Of a stretch of 35,252 bases of DNA, positions 5,329 to 33,180 are shown piece by piece. The DNA is from Cochliopodium minus (Eukaryota; Discosea; Himatismenida; Cochliopodiidae), in assembly GCA_024220525.1 (NCBI GenBank), contig JAMYWO010000365.1:1-35252 (forward strand). Direction: 5' to 3'. The notes below the pieces were generated by a model. That model was not told the DNA's origin, searched no databases, and was given only the letters and a program-made list of their open reading frames with translations. A program made the position numbers and the translations under genes. Each line of letters begins with the position of its first letter. Positions within the stretch are counted from its first letter, which is position 1.

Positions 5329-5357
5329 TCTAATTTTAATTTATTATAAAAAAAAAA

Positions 5358-7893
5358 ATGGAACAAAAAATCAGTTTGGGGGAGATATTTGAGTTAATGG
5401 AGATTGATAAAAAATTGGAGAACAAAATAAAATGTTCAAAATGTTCAAATCTTTTGATTCCAAATCCAAATATGTGCCCAATTTGCTTCTCTTTATTTTG
5501 TGATGGTTGTATAATTGGAAATTTTTGTTGTGATGAAGAATTGCAATTGAATAATGCATTAAAACAAAGGATAATGAATCTTAAATGTAAGTGTAAAGTA
5601 TGTGGAGAAGAATTATTGATCAAAGAAACGAATAATCATCCTCAAACCGAAAATGAACACTCGATTGAATGTGTGGGCTGCAAAAAAAAATTTGAGAAAT
5701 CATTTCTTGAGATGCATCAGCTTTCATGCGAGAAATATCTTCTTATCAACAAAGAGATCGAAATACAAATATTAAAGGAAAAGATTAACTCCCAAATAGA
5801 AAAAGAATTCTCCAAAGAGATGGAGATGCAATGCCTCAAAATCGAAATGAAAAAGATTAAACAAGATATGGAGGGAAAAATAGAAGAACTCATAAAAAGA
5901 AACGAAGAATCCTCTCAAGTGATAGCAAAACTAAGAAGAGAAAAAGAAACAGAAACAGAAAAACTAGAGATGAGAGTAAAAAAGGAGAATGAGAGGAATG
6001 AAAACCTTCAAAAAAAAAATGAAGAAAACTCAAAAGAGATTATGAAACTGAGGAAAGAAAACATCTCTTTTATTAAACAATTTTCTCTCAATAAATCAGA
6101 CCCTCTGAAAGCTAATCAAATTGTATCTTCTACATGCTTTACTTTCAAAATTTTATTCGATAAAGATTTGTTCAACCACAATTTGGTGGACCTTATCATG
6201 AAAAACAGAGTTTTTGAAGAGAAACAAATTTTAAAAATACCAAAACACAGCACGTTATCGGTCATATGTGAAGAAATACAGGAGAGGTTCGGCATTCCCA
6301 TTAATAATTTCAGGATAAGGTTTTTTAATGAAAGAAAGAACAAAACATTAAGACCATCCAAACCACAACTAAAAGAAGACTACCAAATAGTTTTATCCTC
6401 CATTTTTTCTCATCTATTAACAGAAAAATTCATTTTCGTTGAAGTAAATAGTGATTATTTGGCAAACAAAGGGACTCTCTTCGATCCTACCGAACTCCTC
6501 AATTTTAAAGATTATGAAATTTCCCAATTTAATTTACACGGAGAAGGAGAAACATTTTTTCCTGGTGTGTCTGTTTCTCTTCTCTTCTTCAAATTTTTTG
6601 ACAAAGAAAAACAAAGTTTGGAGTATGTTGGACGACTTTATGTTCCCAAAGATATTCTCTTTCGTGAAGTTAAAAAAATCTTGGCAAAGTGGAAGAAAAT
6701 ACCTGAAGATGTACCTATTACTCTTTATGAAGAATGCAAGGTATTTATTTATTCCATTTTTTTTTTTATTCATATATTTTTATAACTTATATTTGTTTTA
6801 CTTTAGGTTGATCCACCAGTCTTAAATCTCATTAATGACTGTTCAGATGTTGAAACTTCAAAGCTCATTAATGGAGATATTATCATTTTCGAACTGGAAA
6901 ATCAGGATATTGAGGGAAATAGCTCTGAGATAAAACATCTCAGTCTCTTCGAGCATTTAGAGTTTATTAGTAACTGCGCAGTGGAAATAACATTTAAAAA
7001 TGAAGATTTTATTAATTCTTGCGTCTTAAAGTTAGGTATTTTTTATTTATTTTTTTCTAAAATTAATTTTAATGAATAATTTTTTTAAAAAAATAAAAGA
7101 TTTAAAAATGTCATACCAGCAAGTGGCAATGGTTCTTGCAAATGAGCTAGAATTACAAAATGATGAAAAAATAGTGTTTAAAAGATATACAGAAAAACAT
7201 AATTACACTTCCCTACATCCAAACCACTTTCCTGATCTCAAGTCCATGTTAACTGGATTTTCTAATTTAAGTACTTCTATTCTAACATTTGGATTTCTTC
7301 CTTTTCCAGTGAAAGATCTTATTAATAAAGTACTGGTCAAAGTCACTGTCATAAATGAGAGAACACAAACCATTTTTTCTGGAATTATATACTTGGACCA
7401 AGATAGATCGACTGCTGAGAATCTAATGAAAGTGATCACTTCAAAACACTTTCCCAAGATTAAACCAAAACCCACTTTGAGGCTGATGGTTGTCGAGAAT
7501 TCTCAAATTTGTTCGATTTTAACAAATGATTACATCTTCCCTCTGAACTCAGAAAATCAATATCTCATTGAATTGTGTTCCAAAGAAGAAACTGCAATGA
7601 AAATCTCTGATCTTTTAGTCCCTGTTTTCAATCTCGATCCTTCATTTAATGTGAATTTTGGTAACCCATTCATGTTTGTTGTCAAAAAAGATGAAAAGTT
7701 GTTCAGTGTAAAGAAACGAATGCAAATCAAACTCAATATTTTATTTAAAGAATTTAGAAGCTGGGAATTTCTTATTTTCAATAAAGAAATTGGAAATTTT
7801 GTTGATATTGATGATGAATTTATTATTTCTGACAATTTCCATTTTCATCAAAATTTTTGGGAACATTTGGTGATAAAGCATAGTAATAATTAA
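5358..7893 (+). CDS. RING/TRAF-like zinc head and coiled coil fused to USP7-type ubiquitin-like (HUBL) C-terminal region
   Basis: Exons 5358-6740, 6807-7035 and 7100-7893 encode 801 residues. Residues about 26-60 hold a RING-like Cys block (KCSKCSN, MCPICFSLFCDGC, CC). Residues about 75-125 hold a second zinc region (CKCKVCGEELL, NHPQTENEHS, CVGCKKKFE, MHQLSC). A charged coiled coil spans about 127-235. The rest aligns by eye with human USP7 after its catalytic domain: FKVL-like FKILFDKDLF, then FFKFFDKEKQSLEYVGRLYV, LYEECKVDPP and GDIIIFELEN. Across intron 2 comes LKLDLKMSYQQVAMVLANEL, then NFGNPFMFVVKKDEKLFSV near the end. No UCH catalytic domain (Cys and His boxes) is present. In USP7 this tail activates the protease and binds partners. 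Here it may recruit ubiquitin-pathway clients to a RING-type head; that role is inferred. Confidence 0.82.
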
Positions 7894-10803: not shown

Positions 10804-13800
10804 ATGGAAAAACAAAAAATTAGTGAGGTTGATGTTATTGGAATAGATTTTGGTACAGAAAGATCAGGATTTTCATTCAGACTCAAAAATGAAAAAGAAC
10901 CCATTGTTTGTGACAAATGGAAAGGAATAACCCTGTATAAAAATTATACTTTGACGGTTTATGACAATAATAACAAAGAAATAAAGGAATGGGGATTGGA
11001 GGCAATCAAAATTTTGAAAAATGAAGAAAATAAAGATAAATACAAAATAGAGAAATATTTCAAAATGTTATTGTATGAGAATCAAGAAGAAAAGAAAAAT
11101 CATACATTCCAATTGATAAGTGATTATTTGGGTTTGATGATGAATTATATCAAAGAAAAAATCAAAGAACAAGGACATAAAATCTCTGAAAATACAAAAT
11201 ATATCCTCACCGTAAATTATTTTTGATTTTCACTTTGTAAAAAATGATCGATAATAGGATCAATATTGATTAAATCAACTTATACAAATGATATTTTAGA
11301 ACATATTGATAAATAATAAAGTTATGTTTAGATTTAATTATATTGGATTTGCGCAAAATAAATTCTCACTTTATGTCAAAATTCATAACATTTCATTTTT
11401 GATATATTTTATTTTAGATTCCAGCAATATGGAATAATGATCAAAAAACAACGATGAAAAGATGTTTTGAGAAAGTGGGATTAGATATTAAAGATAAAAA
11501 AAAGTTTGAAATAATCATTGAATCTGAAGCTGCAATCAATTATGTGATAAATGAAAAAGATGTGAAATGTACAATTTTGGAGGACAAGCCATTTATCGTT
11601 TTTGATGCAGGAGGAGGAACAATAGACATTTCAGTTTTTGTTTTGCAATCTTCAAACAAAAAAGTGAAGAAAATAACAGAATCTAATGGAGGACCAGAAG
11701 GAGGATGGGTTGTTGACAAATATTTTTTGAAATGGTATTACAAATTGTTGGATTATGAAAAATCTTACAAGAAATTTTACAAAGAAATAAGCAATGAAAG
11801 TTCTTTCTTTCATTTTATTGATAAGTGGGTAGAGGAAAAACATTCTTTTTATGAAGATACTCAAATTTATAATGTTCATCTTCCCCCAAAGTTGAGCAAA
11901 CGATTCAAACTAAAGAAGGAAAATGAACATTTACTTGATGAAAATAACTATTTGAAAATTTCAAAAAAAAATATGATCAAATTCTTCAAAAAATCAGTCA
12001 GTAAAAGTATTGGCCACCTCAAGAAAATGATGGATAAAGTCAAGATGTTGACAGGAGTGAATGAAATTGAAGATATCATTTGTGTTGGTGGATTTTCCAA
12101 CTCTGAAATATTAAAGAAAGCCATCAAAAAAGAATTTGAAGAAAAGGGATACAATGGGAAACAATTCAGAGTGAAGATACCAAATCGATGTGACACTGCT
12201 GTGGTTAAGGGAGCTTCTTATTCTTTCGATTCTTTCGAAAAAGAAATGGATTTGATTATTGGCATTGATTTTGGGACATATTCCACTGGTTATGGTTTCA
12301 GAAGAAACATTTTAGATTATCACTCTGAAAAAACAATCAGAAAATATGATGGAAGTGCAAAGGATAGAACCGCTTTGTTATACAAAAAGGAAAATGAGAA
12401 ACTCCTTCCGCTGCTTATTGGTTTGAATGCGATCAAGGAATTTTGTAAATCCAAAAAGGAAGAGTTTCATTTGGCAGAATATTTTAAAATGAATTTGCAC
12501 AAGTTGGAAGAAACCGAGGAAGTGGAAATGTTGGGAAGCAAAATTAAATTGGAAAAAATGATAAGTGATTATTTACTTTTACTTTTGGAAAACGACTTGA
12601 AAAAATATGTTCATTTGAGAGAATTTGTCAATGAAAAAAGTATGAAATGGAAAGAAGAATTAAGAATACATTGGGTGATTACTGTTCCTGCGATTTGGTC
12701 TGAAAAAATGAAGGATGTGATGAGAATGTCTTGTGATATTGCCAATATAGGATGCGAAAACAAAAACCATTCTCGTGAGTTTATTTTTGAACCAGAAGCA
12801 GGTGCTTTGACAGTTCTTGATATGCATTCTAACTTTGGGAACATTAAGAACTTTATGGTGTTTGATGCAGGAGGTGGAACTGTTGATATTTCTATTTATT
12901 CTAAAAATAAAGATAGCAGTATTGATCAAATTCACCATTCTGTCGGAGGAGCTTTTGGAGGAATTTATGTTAACAGATTATTTTAGTTTAAATGTTGTGT
13001 ATTAATAAGAATTTAATTTTTTTTTTTTATAAAAAAAAATATTTTAGGTTGATGAAGAATTTTTCAAGTGGTTATTTGGAGATGAATATGAAAAAATTGT
13101 CAAAGAGTTTCATAATCTGAAGAGTTATCCTGGTTTTTTAAACTCATGGATAAAAATCAAGCATCAATTCGAGGGAGATGTTAAAGAAGATTGCTTTGAA
13201 ACGCTCAAAATTAGTGCTTCTGTCCTAAAATTTTTGAACAAATATAAAAAAGAAAAAATTGAAATCAAAAAAATGAATGGAAATTATTATGTAAAAATTT
13301 CTCAAAAAGAGATTGAAAATTTTTTCCAAAAGGTCGTTCAAAAGTCTGTTGATTTGGTCAAAAATACAATGGATGATTGTATTGAAAAGAAAATTGAAAT
13401 CAACAAAATATTTATGATTGGAGGGTTTTCATCTTCCATTTATCTCACTGATCAAATAAAACTAAAATTTGGAAATACAGTGGAACTGGTGACAGATCCA
13501 TATGAAGCAGTAATAAAAGGAGCCATTCTTTATGGAAGTACTTTTGGAAAATTTCAAAGATTTGTCAATTCTAGAACCGCAAAGTCTAACATTGGCATTG
13601 AAACATACGAAACTTATGATCCCAAAATTCATCAAGGAGAATATATCACCAACAAAGAAGGAGAAAAAAACTTCCCAAACTTTTTTCTTCTTCAAAAAAA
13701 ATCGGTCGAGATTCCTTTCAATTCAGAAATCAAAAAAGAATTTAGATTAACTTCAAATAAGTCGAATATTCTTGAAATAAAAATATTAGAATTGGATGAG

Positions 13801-14868
13801 TACGAAGAAGGAAAAGTGGTTTGTTCCAGATATTGTAGGAAAGTTGGTATTGTCAAAATTGATTGTGAGGAAATTGATTATTTGAAAGAAAAAGTTGAAG
13901 TTTCACTTAAATTTGGTGGAGACGTTTACCAAATTTTTGCAACTGTTCAAAGAAAAAAGTACGAAATCAAAATTGATTATAATATCAAAGAAATGAAAGA
14001 AAAGAGTGTGAATCTACCTTCCGGAAGTGTTGACATTTGTTTTCTAATTGATGTGACTGCTAGTATGGATGATTACATCGAAGTCACCCACAATAAAGTG
14101 AGGTTCATTTCAGAAAAAATAGTTGAAAAAGAAGAAAACCAAAAATCAGTTTCATTGAGAATGGCTTATCTTGGATACAGAGATTTTGACGATGAAGAAA
14201 TGTTTGTTTATTGTCCTTTTGAAGAAATTAATTCTGAAGAATCTTTGAAAGAACTTCACCAAAAACTTGATACAACAAAAGCTTTTGGTGGAGGTGATTT
14301 TCCAGAAAACATGATGGGAGGATTTGAAGAATGTTTGAAATACGATTGGAAAGCTGAAAAGAAAATAATCATTTTGATTGCTGATGCTCCTCCTCATAAC
14401 TATCCTCCTTACATTTTTCAAAATTACATTATTGATAAACATTCTGGGAAAGGTCCAAACCCCAAAACAATATTTGAAGGACTTAGAGAAAAAGATATTC
14501 ATGTTATTTTTGTACAAATTGATCAAATTGAAACTCAAAAAATGGCAGATTTATTTGGAGGATTACACTTAGAATTGTTTCATATCACCGACTTTTCTAC
14601 AATTTCAGAAAAAGAAAACATAGAAAGAGCATTCGAAGATATTTTGGTTCCTGATATTCTTAGATTAACTTCTGGAGAGTGTAATTCAAAAATGACAGAA
14701 TTGCAAAAAATAAAAAAGATAAATGAAACCATAGAAGAAGATTTTTTTTTCGAAGAAACAGATGAAGATGACCTTGGGAGTGAAGAATTTGATTACTTAG
14801 ATTTTTTTTATTCACAACAAGTACTTGGAAGTGAAATGTCTTCGGAATACAGTGACGAAGAAGAATAA
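10804..14868 (+). CDS. Tandem Hsp70/HSPA12-like ATPase domains with C-terminal vWA domain
   Basis: Exons 10804-11211, 11418-12968 and 13048-14868 encode 1259 residues. Domain 1 (about 1-405) shows the actin/Hsp70-fold ATP motifs: VIGIDFGTERSGFSF (phosphate 1), VFDAGGGTIDISVF (phosphate 2, about 197-210) and ICVGGFSNSEILKKAI (adenosine). Domain 2 (about 412-800) repeats them: IIGIDFGTYSTGYGF, VFDAGGGTVDISIY (about 617-630) and FMIGGFSSSIYLTDQI. The peptide-binding domain of classical Hsp70 is not recognisable; a short beta-rich linker follows. Residues about 980-1190 form a vWA domain of the alpha-kinase type: CFLIDVTASMD gives MIDAS D988, T990 and S992, followed by AFGGGDFPENMMGGFEE and ILIADAPPH. 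The acidic C-terminus ends YSDEEE. No kinase domain follows. It is likely a cytosolic ATP-driven sensor or scaffold; function inferred. Confidence 0.87.
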
Positions 14869-22860: not shown

Positions 22861-23056
22861 TTGAATTTTTTTTATTTTTCATTTCACCCCAATTTTCTTT
22901 TCATTCCCCAAATTAATTTATTAAAAAATCTCTTCTATTATTCAAACCACATTTGAATATTGTAAAATTACTTTTGGAGTATAATTATGATCAACATTAA
23001 TTATTCTTACTTTCGATCTACTTCTCTTCATTATATATGTCAAAACTCACTCATAG

Positions 23057-23271
23057 GCAATCATAAAATTATTATTGGAAAAAGGAGCAAGTTTTCACAA
23101 CTCGTTTTTGAATTTCTTATGCAAAAGAACTATAATATATTCTTTTTTCTTTGAATTCTTATTGTTGAAAAAAGCAAAAGCTTATTTAAAAGATGATAAT
23201 CATAAAAATTGTTTGCACTATCTTGTTGAGAATAACAGGCTCGATTGTTTGGCTACTTTGTTGCTTCATCA
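23057..23271 (+). pseudogene. Ankyrin-repeat-like fragment, probably a relic
   Basis: After an acceptor-like catag, a frame reads AIIKLLLEKGASFHN and later DDNHKNCLHYLVENNRLDCL with LLLHQ. Both stretches look like ankyrin repeats, with a hydrophobic, frame-preserving insertion between them. An in-frame TAG lies just upstream, there is no ATG, and I cannot join it to flanking exons. It may be a decayed gene or an exon of an unrecognised gene. Confidence 0.35.
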
Positions 23272-23361
23272 GCGATTTCCCATTTTTGGTCTGTTTCTCC
23301 TGTTTGCCTTGCATGTTATAATAATTTCCCAGAAATTCTCTTTTGTTTAATTAAAAACAAA

Positions 23362-23429
23362 TTTTCTGTTTCCCCTAATTCATTAGTAATTTATTTTTTC
23401 TGTTTCCCCTAATTCATTAGTAATTTATT
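23362..23429. repeat. Perfect 34-bp tandem duplication
   Basis: Two adjacent identical copies of a 34-bp unit, each containing ctgtttcccctaattcatta. Being perfect, it should be recent. It lies in non-coding sequence beside the ankyrin relic. Confidence 0.9.
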
Positions 23430-23871
23430 TAATTTATTTGTTTGTTTCTAGTCCAATAACCCAACTGTCCATTGTTATTTAATGAGAATTCTTCCTTGCA
23501 AGAAATATTATGGATTTATTTAAGTCTCAAACACACCCAAGATGGACGATTGAACATCTTTTGTTTCCTGAATTCTTTAGAATGCAAATTTTTCTTTAAT
23601 ATCTTTATTGAAACATCCAAGATATTATCAAAGTTCCAAAACCTATCTTTCATTTTCAAGTTTATAATTTATTAAAACTCTGCAAGTGGGGAAATAAGAT
23701 GACTTTGAGATAACTTTGCATAGATTAATTAAATGTTGGATCATTCTAATTTAGGTTAAAAAAGCAATCAAAATATTTAATAAAAAAGCAATCAAAATAT
23801 ATAAATAAAATATATATAAAATAAAATATTATTCAACAAAAAAAAAAAAATAAAAAAACTTTAAATTTAAA

Positions 23872-26800
23872 ATGAAGAAGAAAATATTTTCAAGAAGATA
23901 TTCATCAGACTCCGATTCTGAGGATAGTGAAGAAGAAAAACATAATTTTGATGTAAAATTAACTGAAACAACTTTAGATCAAATAAACCAAGAAGGAGAT
24001 AATAATCAGACCATCTCTAATAATATAGAGAAGGAAGTGAAAATAAAGGAATTGTCTGAAGAAGATACAAAAAAACTGTTATCAAGAGTACAAGAGATTT
24101 CCAAAAAAGAGGATGATGAGAAGGATTTTTTCATGAGAGGTAAAATAATTTTGTAATTTCAATAATTTCTGTCAAATTCATCAAATTTTGTAGAAAAATC
24201 TTTGAAGGCTCCTAAAACAGGAAAGAGAATAGAAATTCCATTTCCACCTCCAAGTATTGATAGACCTCCCGAAAATTTGGACCCAAAAAAATTAGAAGAA
24301 TTATCAAGACAAGAAGTTGATGAGGTTAAAGTGGAGAGATACAGCCCAACTGGAGAATTGAATACTATATCTGCATTTTCCATAAATTTCAATCAACCTA
24401 TGATTGCTTTATCAAGTGTATCTGACGTTGAATTAATGGACATTCCTGTAAATTTGACTCCAAAGATACAAGGAAAATGGGTATGGAAAGGGACCCAAAA
24501 TTTACAAGTAAAAAAAAAAAAAATTTTAAAACTCTGGAAATTTTGAAAATTATTTCTTCTTTTAGTTTGAATCTGTTCATAGATTTCCAAAGAGTACAAA
24601 CTATGAAGTTGAATTGAAAAAGGGATTCAAATCGAGTGCTGGGGGAGTACTAAAGAAAGAATTTAAGTTCACCTTTTCCACCACACCAGTAAAACTCTTG
24701 TCCAACTACCCATCTAACAACCAAAGAGTACCAGATCTTACACCTGTCTTTTTCTTTAATTTTGATCAAAAGATTGATCAAGCAGCAGTCCTCAACACCA
24801 TCAAAATAATTGGATCCAACAACACTGGAGGAAAATTGGTTCTTTTGAGCGAAGAAGAAGTAAAAGAAAACAAGCACATAAAGTGGAGTCTTTCTAATGC
24901 TTTGCCTGGCCAGTGGATTTCTTTCAAGTTATCCTCTGAATTGAACAAGAATACCACTTATTCTGTTGAAATTGGACCTGGTACTCCTTCTGCTGAAGGT
25001 CCTCGTCACTCCACTTCCAAAATGTCCATTTCTTTTTCTACCTATCCTCCTTTTACCATCACTTCTTCTTCTCCAAACACAACCACTTATAAAGCTTCTC
25101 CAAAAGGTTAGTTTATATTTTAAATTTGAATTAAAATCAACAATCAATTCTTAAATTTAAATTAATTCTTTTTTAAAAATATTAATTTCAATTCTTTTCT
25201 TTGTTTAGGAACATGGAGCATTTTCTTTGCCAATGAAATTGATCAAAATAGTATTTCTAAAGATCTCATCGAAGTAATACCAGCTTGTGATGGTCTCGCG
25301 GTCAGCAGCTCAGGTTCCTCCATTACGATAAGAAATTACAGCAAAGAAAGTACAGAGTACAAAGTGAAAGTGTCAAACAAGTTAAAAGACATTTATGGAC
25401 AAAGTTTGACAGGTACTGATTATGTGGTTTTTCGTGTTGGAGAGAGAACGCCTTTACCTTCTATTGATGCTCCAAGAGGTTTGTTTACCTATGACCCTTC
25501 TGTTGTTCCTCCTCTCTACAATATTCTTGTAAATCCTATTTTTCTATATTTTTATTTTATTTATTTATTTATTTTATTTTATTTTATTTTATTTTTATTA
25601 ATTAAGGTTTATGAGTACAAGAAAATTATTGTAAAAGTGAGCCAAGTGAATCCTAGTGACTACAGCAGAAGTCCATTGAAAGATTCTTATCATTACAAGT
25701 CTCACATTGGAAAGACAATTTACGACAAAGAATTAGAGTGTAAAATTGATGACCCTACCATCCCTCATAACTTTGCTCTTGACCTCAGAAAATTCTTGCA
25801 ACATGGTTGGTTCTTTTTTTTCTCATCTCATATTAATTTTTATTTATTTAAATATTATTTCCATTTATTAATTTATTTAAATATTATTAATTCTTTTATA
25901 ATTTGTTAATTTATTTTAGAAAAGTCAAATCTCGGGCAGTTACTCATTTCTGTGGAACCTGAAAGAAAAGAGTTTGAAAGGTTGAATAAAGGTACAAAAT
26001 ATGAATACAGACCTATCATATGGAGTTGGGCTCAAGTAAGGATTTTTCATTTTCTTCATTTTCTCTCATCTTTTTATATCTTTTTATATCTTTTTATTTT
26101 GAAAGTGTACCAAAATGGGTATTAATGTAATTTTGAGCAACAACCCAAACCTTCCTTCTTATGCAATCATTTCCAACTTAGTTGACGGATCTCCTGTGTA
26201 ATTATAATAATTATTTATTTATTTAACATTTATTTAATTTAATTATTCATAATTTTTATTTAATTGATTAATAATTATTTATTTAATATTTATTTATTTA
26301 TTTAATATTTATTTATTTAATATTTATTCAAATTGTCATTCACAATTTTTATTAATTTATTTATTCAATTGTTTAATTTTTTTTATCAAAATTATTTGTG
26401 AAAACCCTAGATCTGGAGCAAAATTAGATATGGGAGGAAAAAGTGGAAAATCAAATGAAAACGGGGTAGTTACTCTTACTTCTGCCACTCTGAACTATGC
26501 AAGTGCCATTGCATCATTGGGAGAGGACACTGCTTTTTATTACGGCATTTATCATCATCCTCGCGTTTCTGATGATCATGTCTGGTTTACTTTTGACGAT
26601 AGAAAGCTGTATAAACCAAATGAGACGGTATCAGTAAAAGGTGAATACCCTTTTTTTTAAAATTTTTAATTTTATTTGTTTTATTATCTCGTTTTCTATT
26701 TTTGTTTTATTTGTTTTTTTTTTTTTTAGGATATGTAAGAATTTTGACTCACAAATTAGACACAGTGATTCCAACTTATTGTTCAGGAGACGTGTTGTGG

Positions 26801-29800
26801 AAAGTGTATGACCCAAGAGGAGCACAAATAGCAGATGGAAAATCTCCTCTAAACAAGTTCAGCTCTTTTGACCTTAAATTTACTTTGAAAGATAATGTTA
26901 ACCTTGGTGATGGAAGAATTGAATTTAAATATAAAGGTATTTTTAAATTTTTAAATTTTTTCATTTTTTATTTAAACAATTTTTTATTTATAATAAAGGG
27001 TTGACACATTATCATTCATTCCAAATACAAGAGTTTAGAAGACCAGAGTTTGAAGCAAAATGTAGTTATACACCTGCTTCTAACCACGTCTCCTCTAGTG
27101 AACTTGGTGGTTTTGTTGTTAGTTCTGTAAAAGCTTCTTATTTTGCAGGAGGTAGCTTTTTATTGAAAAAGAATTTATAATTAAATTATTTTTTTTTTAT
27201 TTTTTTTTTACAGGACCTTTGAATGATGCACATGTAACATGGAATATAAGTGCAAAAGAATCTTCTTACACCCCTCCTGGTAACTTTGGATTTTCTTTCG
27301 GAAACACCAAACCTTGGTGGATGTTCTACAATAAAAAGACTACCAACGTTAATATACTTTTTTATTTCTTATTTTTTTATGAATTATTTTTTGTAATATT
27401 TTATTCAACTATGAATTATTTTTAATCATGTTTTTAACTATCAATTATTTGTTTATTTAATTTATTAATCAATTTATTAATTATTTTTTAATTAAATTTA
27501 TAATAGTTTGGATCATGGAGCCAAACAGGAAAAACAGATAAAGAAGGAGAACACCATTTGAGATTAGACTATTTCGGAAATTTGGTAGAAAAAGAACCAG
27601 TACCTATCACCATTATTGCAAGTGCAAGTGTACAAGATATCAATTATCAAACAATGAATTCTAGCACCAATGTTTTGTTGCATCCATCCTCTTATTACGT
27701 TGGTTACAGAGCTCTCAAAAGATTTTGTTCTCCTAATCAATCTGTTCCTATTGAGTTTATCGTTACCACCATTGATGGAAAACTCGTTGACAAAGCACCT
27801 GTACTTCTCAAAGGTAAATATAATTTAATATTTTTTGATTAAAATTATTTATTCATAATTTTTATTTTTATTTTTTTTTTATTTTTTTTTATTTAGTGGT
27901 GAGAAAGTGGAACGAAATAGTAGAAGATGAAAGAGGAATGGCAAAGTGGGAGGAAAAAGAAGAAGTGGTGGAACACAAGTTGCTTAGTTCTTCCAACAAA
28001 GAATCTCCTTCTCTCTTCTCTTTTGAAAGCAAAGACAAACCTGGTACTTATCAATTCCTCTTTTCTACTTTTGATGATAGAGGAAGAATAGCTAAATCGT
28101 GATTCCTTTTTTTTTTTTTCTTTTTATCAAAAATTTTTTTTTATCAATTTTTATATCAATTTTATGTGAAGAGCTTTGACTGGGTTTCATGTAAGTGGAG
28201 GAAAAAGCGATAAAAAGAGAGTGAACAATAAAAAGATAGAAAATGAAGAAGTCACTCTTATACCCAACAAAGAAACTTATGAAGATGGTGATGAAGGAGA
28301 AGTTTTGGGTAAAATAAAAAATTATTTTTTTTTGAATTAATTTTAATTTTAAAAACAATTTATTTTTTTAATTGCATTAAAAAATAGTGATTTCACCATT
28401 TTCACCTGCATACGGGACATTGATATTGGACTGTGGAGGAACAGTACATCTGAAATCATTTGAAATGAAATCAGAAACGGAAATAATCAAGTTTCCCATC
28501 AAAAAAGAATGGCTTCCTGAAATCACCCTCCGAGTTGACTTGAATGGAAGCACTTATAGAATCAATGAATCTGGTCAAAGTGCTAAAGATGCCCCAAAGA
28601 GGTAATAAAATTTTTTTTTAAAATTATTTTGAAAATTTTATTTTTTTTTTATAAATTTCAAACAAAACAGACCTTCTCAAGCATCAGGATCAATAGGAGT
28701 GAAAATATCGAACAAGATATTTGAGTTAGAGGTCATTCCCCTCCCTTCCAAAAGAAAAACTTCGCCTGGTGATGAGTTGGACATCGAGGTTTTGATCAAA
28801 AACAAAAAGGGAGATGTAATTATTTTTTTATTTTTACTTAATTTTAAAATTTTTATATTTTTTATATATTTATTCATTTTAATATTTTTATTCATTTTAA
28901 TATTTTTATATTTTAAAATTTTTATATTTTTTATATTTTTATTCATTTTAATATTTTTATATTTTATTTATATTTTTTACTTTTTTAGGTAGCTCAAAAT
29001 GTGGAAGTATGTCTTGTGGTGGTGGACGAGAGTGTATTGGCATTAGCGGGATATTCTCTTCAAAATCCTTTATCTCTTTTTTATCGTTCAAGATCTTCTG
29101 GTGTGTATAATGCATACAGAACCAGAGATCAAGTTCTCTTATTTGATATTGAAGATCTCAAAAGCTTGGGTGAGGTAATTTTTTTATTTTTTTTAAAATT
29201 TTATTACAATATTTACTATTTTAATTGATTTCATATTTATTTTTATTTATTTTATATTTATTTTATATTTATTTTATATTTATTTTATATTTATTTTATA
29301 TTTATTTTATATTTATTTTATATTTATTTTTATTTTCTATTTTTATTTTCTATTTTAATTTATTTTTAAATTTTTTTTTAAAAAAGGCATCACTTATTAT
29401 ACCAGTGAAAAAAGAAGAGGAATATCGTTGTAAGAAGAAATGTTGTAAATGTTGTAGTAATTGTTGTAGAAGTAGAAGTTGTTGCGAAAGGGAAGAAAAA
29501 TGCTGTTGTGAAGATGACGGAACGGATTCTTCTGAAGAATGTGATGAAGATGGTGAAGGTGCTCTTGACAATGACAAACCTATCAAAGGTAAAAAAATTC
29601 TGATATTTTAATTTTTCTAAATTATTTTTAAATTTTTAATTTTTTTTAATTATTATTTTTTGCTAATTTTTAATTTTTTTTGTAAATTATTTTTAAAAAT
29701 AGTGAGAACAAACTTTGATGCGTTAGCATTGTTTTCACCATCTTTGGTTACTGACAAGAATGGAAAATGCTCCACTAAATTCAAACTCCCCGATAATCTC

Positions 29801-32800
29801 ACCAGATACAGGTACACATCTTTCTTCTTTTCATTTTTTTTTTAAAATGTTTCACAATTTCCTTTTCAATAATCAAAAGAGTATGGGCTATTGCTGCAGA
29901 CAATCAAAGGTTTATTTTCATTCAATTTATTTTTTATTATATTTATTTTTATTTTATTTATTATTATTTTCATTCAATTTATTTTTTATTATATTTATTT
30001 TTATTTTATTTATTATTATTTTCATTTAATTTATTTTTTATTATATTTATTTTTATTTTATTATTTTATTTATTCGTTTTACCCATTATAAAAGATATGG
30101 GTTGGGAGAGTCAGATATATCAGCAGTGTTACCATTGATGGTGAGACCATCATTGCCGAGATTCTTGAACTTTGGAGACAGACCTGATGTCAACGTTGTT
30201 GTTCAAAATCAAACTGATGAATCTTTAAATGTTGTCATCGCCATGAGATGCACCAACGCTTCCATCAGGTAAAATAAAATTATAAAAAAAATAAAAATAA
30301 AAAGAAATAAAATAAATAAAAAATCATAAAAATTAATTTTAATTATAAAAAAATTAACAAATATTAAAAATAAGTTTAAACTTTTTTAAATGATTATAAA
30401 GAGAGGGTTCAGGAGGGTTTTCATTCAATTTGGAACCAGCACAAAGAATAAACATAAAGTTTCCAATAGAAACCCAATTCAGTGGTATTGCCAGATTTCA
30501 AACTGTTGTTGCTTCCAAAGACTTTGCTGACAGTGCAGAAACTACCATCCCCATTTTCACTCCTGCTACCACAGAAGCCTTTGTACATTTTCTTTTGTTC
30601 AAAAAAAAAAATTATTCTATATTAATTTTTGATTTCAAATTCATTAATTTTTTTTTTTTCAATTTTTTTATTTTGATTGAAAAGGCAACTTATGGTATTT
30701 TTTTTTTTTTTAGATTTTTTTTTTTTAATTTTGTTTTACATTTTATTTTTAAAAAGGGGATATATCAGAAGAAAAGGCAATAATATTACAAGATGTGAAA
30801 GCACCAAGTGATGTGTATTCCCAATTTGGAGGATTAGAAGTTTCCACCAGCACCACTGTTCTCCAATCTCTCACTGACTCTATCCTCTATCTCTACAACT
30901 ACTCTTATGAATGTAACGAACAATTAGCCAGTAGAGTTTTAGGTAATAAAAAAAATAAAAACAAAAATCATAAAAAATAAAATCAAAAATCATAAAAAAT
31001 AAAAATAAATAAAAATCATAAAATAAAAATAAATAAAAATCATAAAATATAAATAAATAAAATCATAAAATAAAAAATAATGAAAATAAAAATAAAATTA
31101 TTAATTTAAAAATAGGGGTTGGATCATTGAGAGATGTATTGGTTGCATTTAAAGTGAAAGGATCACCAAGTTTGGAGACAATCAACAAAAAATTAGAAGA
31201 CGGACTCCACAAATTGAAAAGAAGACAATGGGGTAATGGTGGTTTTTCTTATTGGGAACCCACTTCTTGGTGCAAACCTTCCCCTTACGTCTCCTGTCAT
31301 GTTGGGTACATTTTTTCTTTCAATTTTAATATTTTTTATTTTTTATTTTTTATTTTTTATTTTTGTTAAAAAAGACACATGTTGGCATTATGCAAACAGA
31401 AGGGAATTAAATATGATGAAGGAGTATGGAGTAAACTGAAATCATTTTTACTAAACATTGATTCTCACTTTGATTCTTGGTACAGCATCTCCTCTAAAAA
31501 CTCCATCAGGTCCTATGCTTTGTATTCCTTGACCAAATATGGCGAAGACGTCACTGCCAAAGCTCGTAATACAAAAAAAATAAAAAATGAAGAATAATCG
31601 AAATAAAACAAAATAATAAAACAAAATATAAAACAAAATAAAAAATAAAAAAATAATCAATTAATTAAAAATAATTAAAAAAAAAAATAGTTCAATTGTT
31701 CAAAAGTGAAAATTTGGAAAACTTTCCATTAGAAGCTTTTGGTTGGTTGCTGGTTGCTTTAAAGCCTAAACAATCCACTTTGACTAAAGAGGCCATCTCC
31801 TCCATTTTGAAACATCTCAAAAACAAAGTCAATGAAACTGCTGAGGTACTCTAAAAAAATCTTATTTATAATAAATAAACTTTAATCTTATTTTTTTAAA
31901 AAAGACTGCAAACTTTGTAACATCATATGGAGATGATGGACAATACGTCATGCTTCACAGTGAGAGAAGAACAGATGGTGTTTTGTTAGAGGGTTTGTTG
32001 ACTGTTGACGAAAAAAATTCTTTGATTCCCAAATTGGCTAAAGGGTCCTTTTTGTTTAATTTTAAATATTATTATTATAATTTTACTTCCATATTATTTT
32101 TACTTCAATATTATTTTAAATTTTAAATAATTTTTATGTTTTACTTTTTTTAAAAAAAAAATTTAGTTTATTAGCTCACAAGAAACAGGGAAAGTGGAGC
32201 AACACACAAGAGAATTCATTGATTTTAGTTGCTTTAGATAAATTCTTTGCTGTTTATGAGAAAGATGTTCCTGAATTTATCACCCATATGTGGTTTGGTG
32301 AAGGTATTTTTAATAAAATAAAAACTTGAAAAAATAAATAAATTTTTTTTAAAGATTATGCTGGAGAACAAAAATGGAAAGGAAGAACAACAGATACAAA
32401 CATAGTGAATATACCAATGAAACATGTTGTTGAAGGAGAAGAAACAAAACCATTGATAATCCAAAAAGAAGGAAAAGGAAGGTTGTACTACAGATTGGGT
32501 TTGAGTTATGCTCCTAAAAGTTTAGACTTGAAAGAATCTTCTTATGGTTTCTTTATCAAGAGAAGTTACGAAGGTGTTGACAGCAAAGATCATGTAAAGA
32601 AAGATGAAAATGGTGTTTGGTAATTTTTTTTCTTTTTTTTCTTTTCTTTTTCAAATTAACTTTTTTTAGGCATTTTTCTTTGGGACAAAAGGTACTCGTT
32701 AAAATAGATATGATCACCACTTCCCGTAGATATCATGTAGCTCTAGGTTTTTTTTTTAAATTCTTTTTTAATTTTAATTCTATAAAATCCAAAAACTTTC

Positions 32801-33180
32801 AGTTGATAAACTTCCTGCAGGTCTTGAAATTGTTAACCCTTACCTTAAAGGAGGAGCAGGTTTGTCATTTTACTTTATTAAAATTTTTTCAACTTTTTTA
32901 ATTAGGAACTGGAGGAGATGTGGAGAGCAACAAGCTAGGAGGGTTCAACCCATACAGTTGGAGATGGTATCATCCTACTAACTGGTATGAACATCAAAAC
33001 TTGAGAGATGAAAGAGCAGAAGCCTTTCAATCTTTGTTGTGGGAAGGAAAATATGAGTACAAGTACATCGCCAGAGCAACCACCAAGGGAACTTTTGTGG
33101 TTCCACCAGCATCTGCAGAGGAAATGTACTCCCCTGAAGTATTTGGAAGATCTTCAACTGATAAAGTTATCATCAATTAA
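23872..33180 (+). CDS. Bacterial-type alpha-2-macroglobulin with thioester, 33 exons
   Basis: Exons: 23872-24139, 24194-24507, 24566-25106, 25209-25528, 25607-25805, 25920-26035, 26106-26197, 26411-26640, 26730-26936, 26999-27151, 27214-27347, 27507-27813, 27897-28098, 28172-28308, 28388-28601, 28671-28815, 28989-29174, 29387-29588, 29703-29811, 29880-29909, 30095-30268, 30402-30582, 30685-30694, 30757-30942, 31116-31305, 31375-31565, 31691-31845, 31905-32044, 32167-32303, 32355-32619, 32670-32746, 32803-32859, 32906-33180. Total 2048 codons, all phases consistent. The acidic N-terminus has no signal peptide. Order: Big_5-like Ig modules (about 120-480); MG1 (from 482); MG2 (DDRKLYKPNETVSV); bait-region domain (ISPFSPAYGTLILDCGG, VVVDESVLALAGY); Cys-rich insert (1256-1322); MG8 (FSPSLVTDKNG, KLPDNLTRYRVWAIAAD); thioester YECNEQLASR (Cys1543, Gln1546); C-terminal MG modules. 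The family traps proteases through bait cleavage and thioester attack. It resembles bacterial more than animal members. Confidence 0.88.
29387..29588 (+). other. Cysteine-rich, acidic exon at the bait position
   Basis: Exon 18 of the alpha-2-macroglobulin encodes 13 cysteines, mostly as CC pairs (RCKKKCCKCCSNCCRS, SCCEREEKCCCEDD), followed by an acidic Ser/Glu/Asp stretch. It falls just before the conserved VRTNFDALALF segment, where the variable bait lies in this family. Confidence 0.8.
29915..30070. repeat. Intronic minisatellite, 52-bp unit, three copies
   Basis: The marker ttttcattcaatttat recurs at 29915 and 29967, and with one change at 30019, a spacing of 52 bp. The array fills most of intron 20 of the alpha-2-macroglobulin gene. 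Confidence 0.85.
30685..30694 (+). other. 10-nt microexon of the alpha-2-macroglobulin gene
   Basis: It reads gcaacttatg between an AG acceptor (30683-30684) and a GTATTT donor. It encodes ATY plus the first base of Gly. Exon 22 ends in phase 0 and exon 24 starts with two bases, so the frame closes only if it is included. Confidence 0.75.

Follow-up and report, generated by a model that had tools for sequence, protein, structure and literature searches.

Gene structure and domain organisation

The window analysed here, a 35,252 nt stretch of Cochliopodium minus DNA (contig JAMYWO010000365.1, positions 1–35,252), carries on its forward strand a spliced gene for a protein of the bacterial alpha-2-macroglobulin (A2M) type. 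A splice-aware Viterbi model, built on codon usage, intron composition and GT-AG sites and run without homologues, resolved the gene into 33 exons and 32 introns of 46–213 nt, ending in a TAA stop codon (33178–33180). Its features are listed in Table 1. One junction is ambiguous, as the donor may lie after 32044 or 32053, giving a protein of 2047 or 2050 aa. The 2047 aa form was preferred because it restores the spacing of an AKGLLAHK-like sequence, as found in the related proteins P0002, P0003 and P0006. Searches by tblastn with two other relatives (P0001 and P0122) matched 31 of the 33 exons, the exceptions being the bait exon (exon 18) and the 10 nt exon 23. The original prediction, made from the window sequence, had given the same protein length, which the model returned after the junction choice, but its 33 introns should read 32. 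Its view of an intron-rich nuclear gene is well supported.

Table 1. Features of the A2M-type gene in the window (nt positions within the window; aa positions in the 2047-residue protein).
Feature	Position	Strand	Residues	Basis and remarks
Whole gene, 33 exons/32 introns	23872..33180	+	2047 aa	Viterbi model and tblastn
Exon 1, Lys/Ser/Asp/Glu-rich N-terminus without signal peptide	23872..24139	+		Gene model, hydrophobicity
Exons 3–4, best of three Big_5 (bacterial Ig-like) stretches	24566..25528	+	356–449	Pfam
Exons 8–10, MG2 domain	26411..27151	+	676–771	Pfam
Exons 14–17, A2M_BRD domain	28172..29174	+	1056–1212	Pfam
Exon 18, bait segment by position, 13 Cys (aa 1270–1307) and acidic tail	29387..29588	+	1256–1322	Alignment; bait role putative
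Exons 19–21, A2M (PF00207) domain	29703..30268	+	1331–1418	Pfam
Micro-exon 23, 10 nt	30685..30694	+		Required for conserved FATYGD
CNEQ thioester motif, lock tyrosines Y1539 and Y1541 just before	30912..30923	+	C1543–Q1546	Motif comparison
Exons 30–33, bMG10 / C-terminal MG domain	32355..33177	+		Pfam
RDER, equivalent of RDDR motif	33004..33015	+		Motif comparison
EEMY, equivalent of EXMY motif; includes the Met and Tyr of the lock	33118..33129	+		Motif comparison

The Pfam matches follow the order Big_5 (three stretches), MG2, A2M_BRD, A2M and bMG10, all above the curated cut-offs, which agrees with the bacterial A2M layout proposed earlier. The thioester domain has no Pfam match but was aligned to YfhM in a search of the PDB, where YfhM scored 68 bits versus 21 bits for CD109, the sole animal member to appear, a ranking that favours the bacterial protein. 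The best solved relatives were chains named YfhM and A2M lipoprotein 4u48.

Thioester and lock residues

The account of 4u48 (PMC4498604) identifies it as Salmonella A2M, counts Tyr1175, Tyr1177, Met1625 and Tyr1626 among the residues of the thioester-shielding pocket, and describes RDDR and EXMY motifs that bond to the thioester domain at first and to the bait after cleavage. All four shielding residues and both motifs are retained in the window protein, as YSYECNEQ, RDER (one acidic residue changed from RDDR) and EEMY, and the YECNEQLASR sequence singled out previously is intact. Among eukaryotic relatives (see below), an aromatic-x-aromatic-x-CxEQ sequence is present in 37/37 rows, RDER in 27/37 and EEMY in 26/37. 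The precomputed Pfam lists show no bMG10 for the ten rows that lack RDER as well as EEMY, and the end of P0002 diverges. Judged by its CxEQ motif, its MG/bait/A2M/bMG10 order and its lock residues, the predicted protein is an A2M of the type I bacterial kind.

Relatives and phylogeny

Three protein searches were made, of which the best 120 of 3902 matches (first), all 44 (second) and the best 120 of 190 (third) were considered. Candidate numbers were capped in the first two, and further eukaryotic members may exist beyond these. Among the best 120 of the 3902, the bacterial-type matches, those with names being mostly from Acidobacteriota, showed 37–43% identity; named Acidobacteriota proteins were 39% identical to the window protein over 97%, which bears out the bacterial type assigned originally. 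The same 120 included two EukProt transcripts (P0001 and P0002, both Trinity contigs) with 56% and 46% identity to the window protein, as well as P0003 and P0006, which group with rotifers in the tree.

Searches with eukaryotic profiles added bdelloid rotifers (Adineta, Rotaria, Didymodactylos), ferns (Adiantum nelumboides and A. capillus-veneris) and one transcriptome protein of the amoeba Stereomyxa. With relatives spread across bdelloids, ferns, Stereomyxa and EukProt transcripts, the window gene is not a one-off. The eukaryotic set comprises 39 rows: the window protein, P0001–P0003, P0006, P0121–P0124, P0162–P0189, P0233 and P0260. It includes 19 Rotaria rows, five of them with identical first 30 residues. 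Tree position, identity or source was used to assign P0001–P0003, P0006, P0170, P0184, P0185 and P0189; P0184 and P0185 group with ferns, and P0170 and P0189 are absent from all trees. Three of the fern rows (P0186–P0188) are bacterial-type A2M in Adiantum, one of them on a 181-Mb sequence. No further A2M is known to us from land plants.

The eukaryotic proteins form one clade in each tree. Its support was SH-aLRT 100 in a quick LG+G4 tree (17 eukaryotic rows among 55) and UFBoot/SH-aLRT 100/99 under the LG+C20 mixture (9 among 31), with a single change in all 200 bootstrap trees. FastTree, a form that joins long branches readily, gave a support of 100 (9 rows among 94, including 80 named bacterial loci). 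Within the clade Stereomyxa branches first, the window group next, then ferns together with rotifers. In the FastTree reconstruction the 80 named loci, drawn from Acidobacteriota, Chloroflexota, Myxococcota and others, group by themselves (support 97), with the eukaryotes beside this group and not nested within it. The exact order is left loose by three more distant proteins (P0263, P0264 and P0266), and the LG+C20 tree places the eukaryotic branch in an open fork. The trees covered bacterial-type rows and the eukaryotic rows described above.

The simplest reading of these trees is a single transfer into eukaryotes followed by later spread or loss. An unsampled donor lineage could alter it, and the route of spread is not given by the tree. 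A viral vector for the window gene was considered and rejected, as no relative was confirmed when the eukaryotic profile A2 was run against viral_contigs (55 candidate stretches from two peptide patterns). Among the papers listed in literature searches, none was recognised as an account of this signal-less eukaryotic A2M family.

The N-terminus

Signal peptides were scored by an 11-residue Kyte–Doolittle window with a threshold of 1.6, in place of a trained predictor. In the first 60 residues of the window protein no such window rises above −0.02, consistent with the Lys/Ser/Asp/Glu-rich, signal-less N-terminus described originally. The predicted protein departs in this respect from type I bacterial A2M, which is characterised by an export signal and a periplasmic or surface location. 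A hydrophobic stretch precedes the first domain in 77 of the 80 bacterial loci, the three misses being ORFs (open reading frames) open at a contig edge; this count scanned each ORF upstream as far as the preceding stop, and so covered more sequence than the 60 N-terminal residues scanned in eukaryotes. In a repeated, matched check, the counts were 76/80 with the scan to the preceding stop and 73/80 when the 60 residues starting at the first Met were scanned. Only two of the 39 eukaryotic rows (P0003 and P0166) reach 1.6, whether over the first 60 residues or the whole stretch before the first domain. Values below 1.6 also occur in 30 of 232 non-eukaryotic rows, several of them resembling late start calls.

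The closest orthologues, P0001 and P0002, are transcripts with ORFs labelled complete; both begin with MGNK and have no signal peptide, and their C-termini diverge. The MGN start presumably fits N-myristoylation. It is followed by about 80 residues with a weak resemblance to an EF-hand pair (PF13499, E = 0.002, below the cut-off, with P0002 by itself; troponin C, E = 0.0036, both aligned). A corresponding MGNK/EF-hand exon in the window gene was rejected, since tblastn with the N-terminal 300 residues of each of P0001 and P0002 found strong matches in the window only at the known exon 1–2 region.

The cysteine-rich bait segment

The bait segment lies between A2M_BRD and the next MG domain, mostly in exon 18, and holds 13 of the 27 Cys of the window protein. 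This density (a maximum of 13 Cys per 60 aa) was matched by none of 2000 shuffles. Where baits were measured, Cys was found in none of 69 bacterial loci and none of 180 non-eukaryotic rows, and in all 33 eukaryotic baits of at least 35 aa (1–14 Cys each), a gain of bait Cys in the eukaryotic clade. The remaining six of the 39 eukaryotic rows comprise two with 4–6 residues and no Cys, two that yielded no segment and two half proteins. Total Cys numbers are 4–11 in bacterial loci versus 24–51 in the longer eukaryotic rows, 37 in number. Acylation, metal binding or oxidation sensing are possible roles for clusters like KKCCKCCSNCC. The two baits of 4–6 residues belong to rotifer predictions (P0163 and P0182), and may reflect true loss or prediction error.

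Proposed function

The reading we prefer, with a probability of roughly 0.55, is that of a single entry of a type I bacterial-type A2M into eukaryotes, where it shed its export signal and now works as an intracellular thioester protease trap. The signal would have been lost before the eukaryotic clade diversified. A protease reaching the cytosol would cut the exposed bait segment encoded by exon 18; the C-terminal MG domain would then free the thioester domain, and the Cys1543–Gln1546 thioester would bond covalently to the protease. Putative targets are proteases of ingested or vacuole-escaping bacteria, or those of the cell itself. The least certain step concerns the Cys-dense bait of the window group and the MGNK/EF-hand-like N-terminus of its two relatives, which suggest lipid attachment to a membrane's inner face, or metal or redox control of the bait. 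The original prediction of a thioester trap kept in the cytosol stands as to bacterial type, intron-rich nuclear gene, intact thioester and missing signal peptide, while the intracellular location is still read from sequence; the comparison strengthens it at that level by extending it from a single gene to a clade.

Several observations weigh against the proposed intracellular trap. The cytosol is rich in thiols, and a thioester there may not survive without good shielding. Dense bait Cys (at least 7) occur in only six of the 39 rows (the window protein, P0001, P0002, P0003, P0006 and P0122); other rotifers, ferns and Stereomyxa have 1–3 bait Cys where measured. Several Cys columns are common to rotifers and ferns and could pair if the protein were secreted. 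The predictions P0003 (1.73) and P0166 (1.77) have a hydrophobic stretch near the start, and the 5′ end of the window gene is itself predicted. The letter make-up of many rows, including the window protein, misfits the tree models, and Stereomyxa is a long branch.

A rival reading is export after all, whether by an unconventional pathway or through a signal peptide encoded on an overlooked 5′ exon, which would make the protein an ordinary extracellular or vacuolar protease trap. To our knowledge, A2M and complement proteins, in animals and bacteria alike, act outside the cytoplasm. The upstream region (22881–23860) contains three ATG ORFs of at least 15 aa, and one (23193–23318) is strongly hydrophobic. 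However, this ORF coincides in part with ankyrin-like code and lacks a GT[AG][AT] donor (looser donors, used elsewhere in the gene, are possible), and it could be spliced to exon 1 only across an intron longer than 500 nt, well beyond those of the gene. An upstream signal exon, which was looked for, therefore finds no support here, and the orthologous transcripts begin with MGNK. The shared Cys columns of rotifers and ferns could be disulfides, but across 25 rows no Cys column is universal except that of the thioester, and 37 of the 39 eukaryotic N-termini fall below the hydrophobicity threshold. Export is unlikely on this evidence.

The same thioester chemistry serves both protease-trap and complement roles in the superfamily, and the retained lock would suit a cytosolic covalent tag, resembling complement C3, that marks bacterial or damaged-membrane surfaces and traps no protease. 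Against this, a bait of at least 35 aa is kept in 33 of the 39 rows and the window protein has no C3-specific Pfam domain, making such a tag improbable. The strongly altered bait, with 13 Cys versus none, and the two nearly baitless rotifer predictions could instead point to a scaffold or sensor built from the MG domains and the Cys-rich segment, with the thioester a mere passenger. A scaffold would need neither CxEQ nor the two aromatic shielding residues, and their retention in 37/37 rows counts against it, so that we give it little credence. Import into mitochondria or a related organelle through the first 12 residues is very improbable: this segment (MKKKIFSRRYSS) is basic without acidic residues, and the first 20 residues of P0001 and P0002 have net charges of +2 and +4, but the EF-hand-like start of these two proteins contains acidic residues, and over the same length the five fern-group starts carry a net charge of 0 to −5.

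If the intracellular trap is real, a clade that gave up the export signal but retained both thioester and shield would show that such chemistry is able to operate under reducing conditions within a cell compartment. Rotifers, ferns and protists would then possess an unsuspected intracellular defence, a counterpart of complement and A2M immunity, and an unusual bacterial-type gene would be present across several eukaryote groups. A broader picture, of patchy but widespread eukaryotic cytosolic thioester traps of one bacterial origin, exchanged between amoebae and other protists, rotifers and ferns and carrying a lipid-anchored or metal/redox-controlled Cys-rich bait, is tentative, with the odds somewhat against it.

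Contig surroundings

The G+C content of the window is 23–33% per kb, and the genome assembly of 598 contigs totals 44.65 Mb. Elsewhere on the contig, ORFs show similarity to USP7-like, ankyrin, Hsp70-like and VWA domains, and weakly, short of the cut-off, to PX, in line with a eukaryotic nuclear contig. Two ORFs at 5340–7890 (+) match USP7_ICP0_bdg and USP7_C2, portions of a ubiquitin-specific protease 7-like gene, while Hsp70-like domains followed by a VWA domain lie in adjoining ORFs at 11418–14868 (+). An ankyrin-like remnant in two reading frames is found immediately upstream of the A2M gene at 22940–23280 (+), with an Ank_2 match (E = 3.4e-5 for the joined letters) below the cut-off. The same genome has a second A2M-like gene (L001; G000:C149:61830-65000), with a CFEQ motif and a PF07678 match, of a different A2M type. 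It is distant from the window gene: among seven query proteins, only P0160 matched it by tblastn (E = 0.003).

Comparison with known systems

The window protein resembles YfhM of E. coli and Sa-A2M of Salmonella in its MG domains, bait, CxEQ, Tyr-x-Tyr lock, RDxR, ExMY and bMG10. It differs from them in lacking a signal peptide, in being encoded by a spliced nuclear gene, in having Cys in the bait, and in length (about 2000 aa versus 1614–1647 aa in the longer solved chains). Bacterial Big_5/A2M proteins of about 2000 aa (L002–L081, the 80 named loci) show near full-length homology, with 32–36% identity to a rotifer query in the best segment, but have a hydrophobic N-terminus in 73–77 of 80, depending on the measure, few Cys in total and none in the measured baits. 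Animal A2M, CD109 and complement C3 share the superfamily chemistry and CxEQ, but are secreted or glycosylphosphatidylinositol-anchored, and CD109 matched only distantly in the PDB search. The closest counterparts are the rotifer, fern, Stereomyxa and EukProt proteins, representatives of which share a clade with the window protein and 36 of 38 of which have no strongly hydrophobic N-terminus. P0001 and P0002 differ from the window protein by their extra MGNK and EF-hand-like segment, and the number of bait Cys varies among these eukaryotic relatives, from 1 to 14 in measured baits of at least 35 aa.
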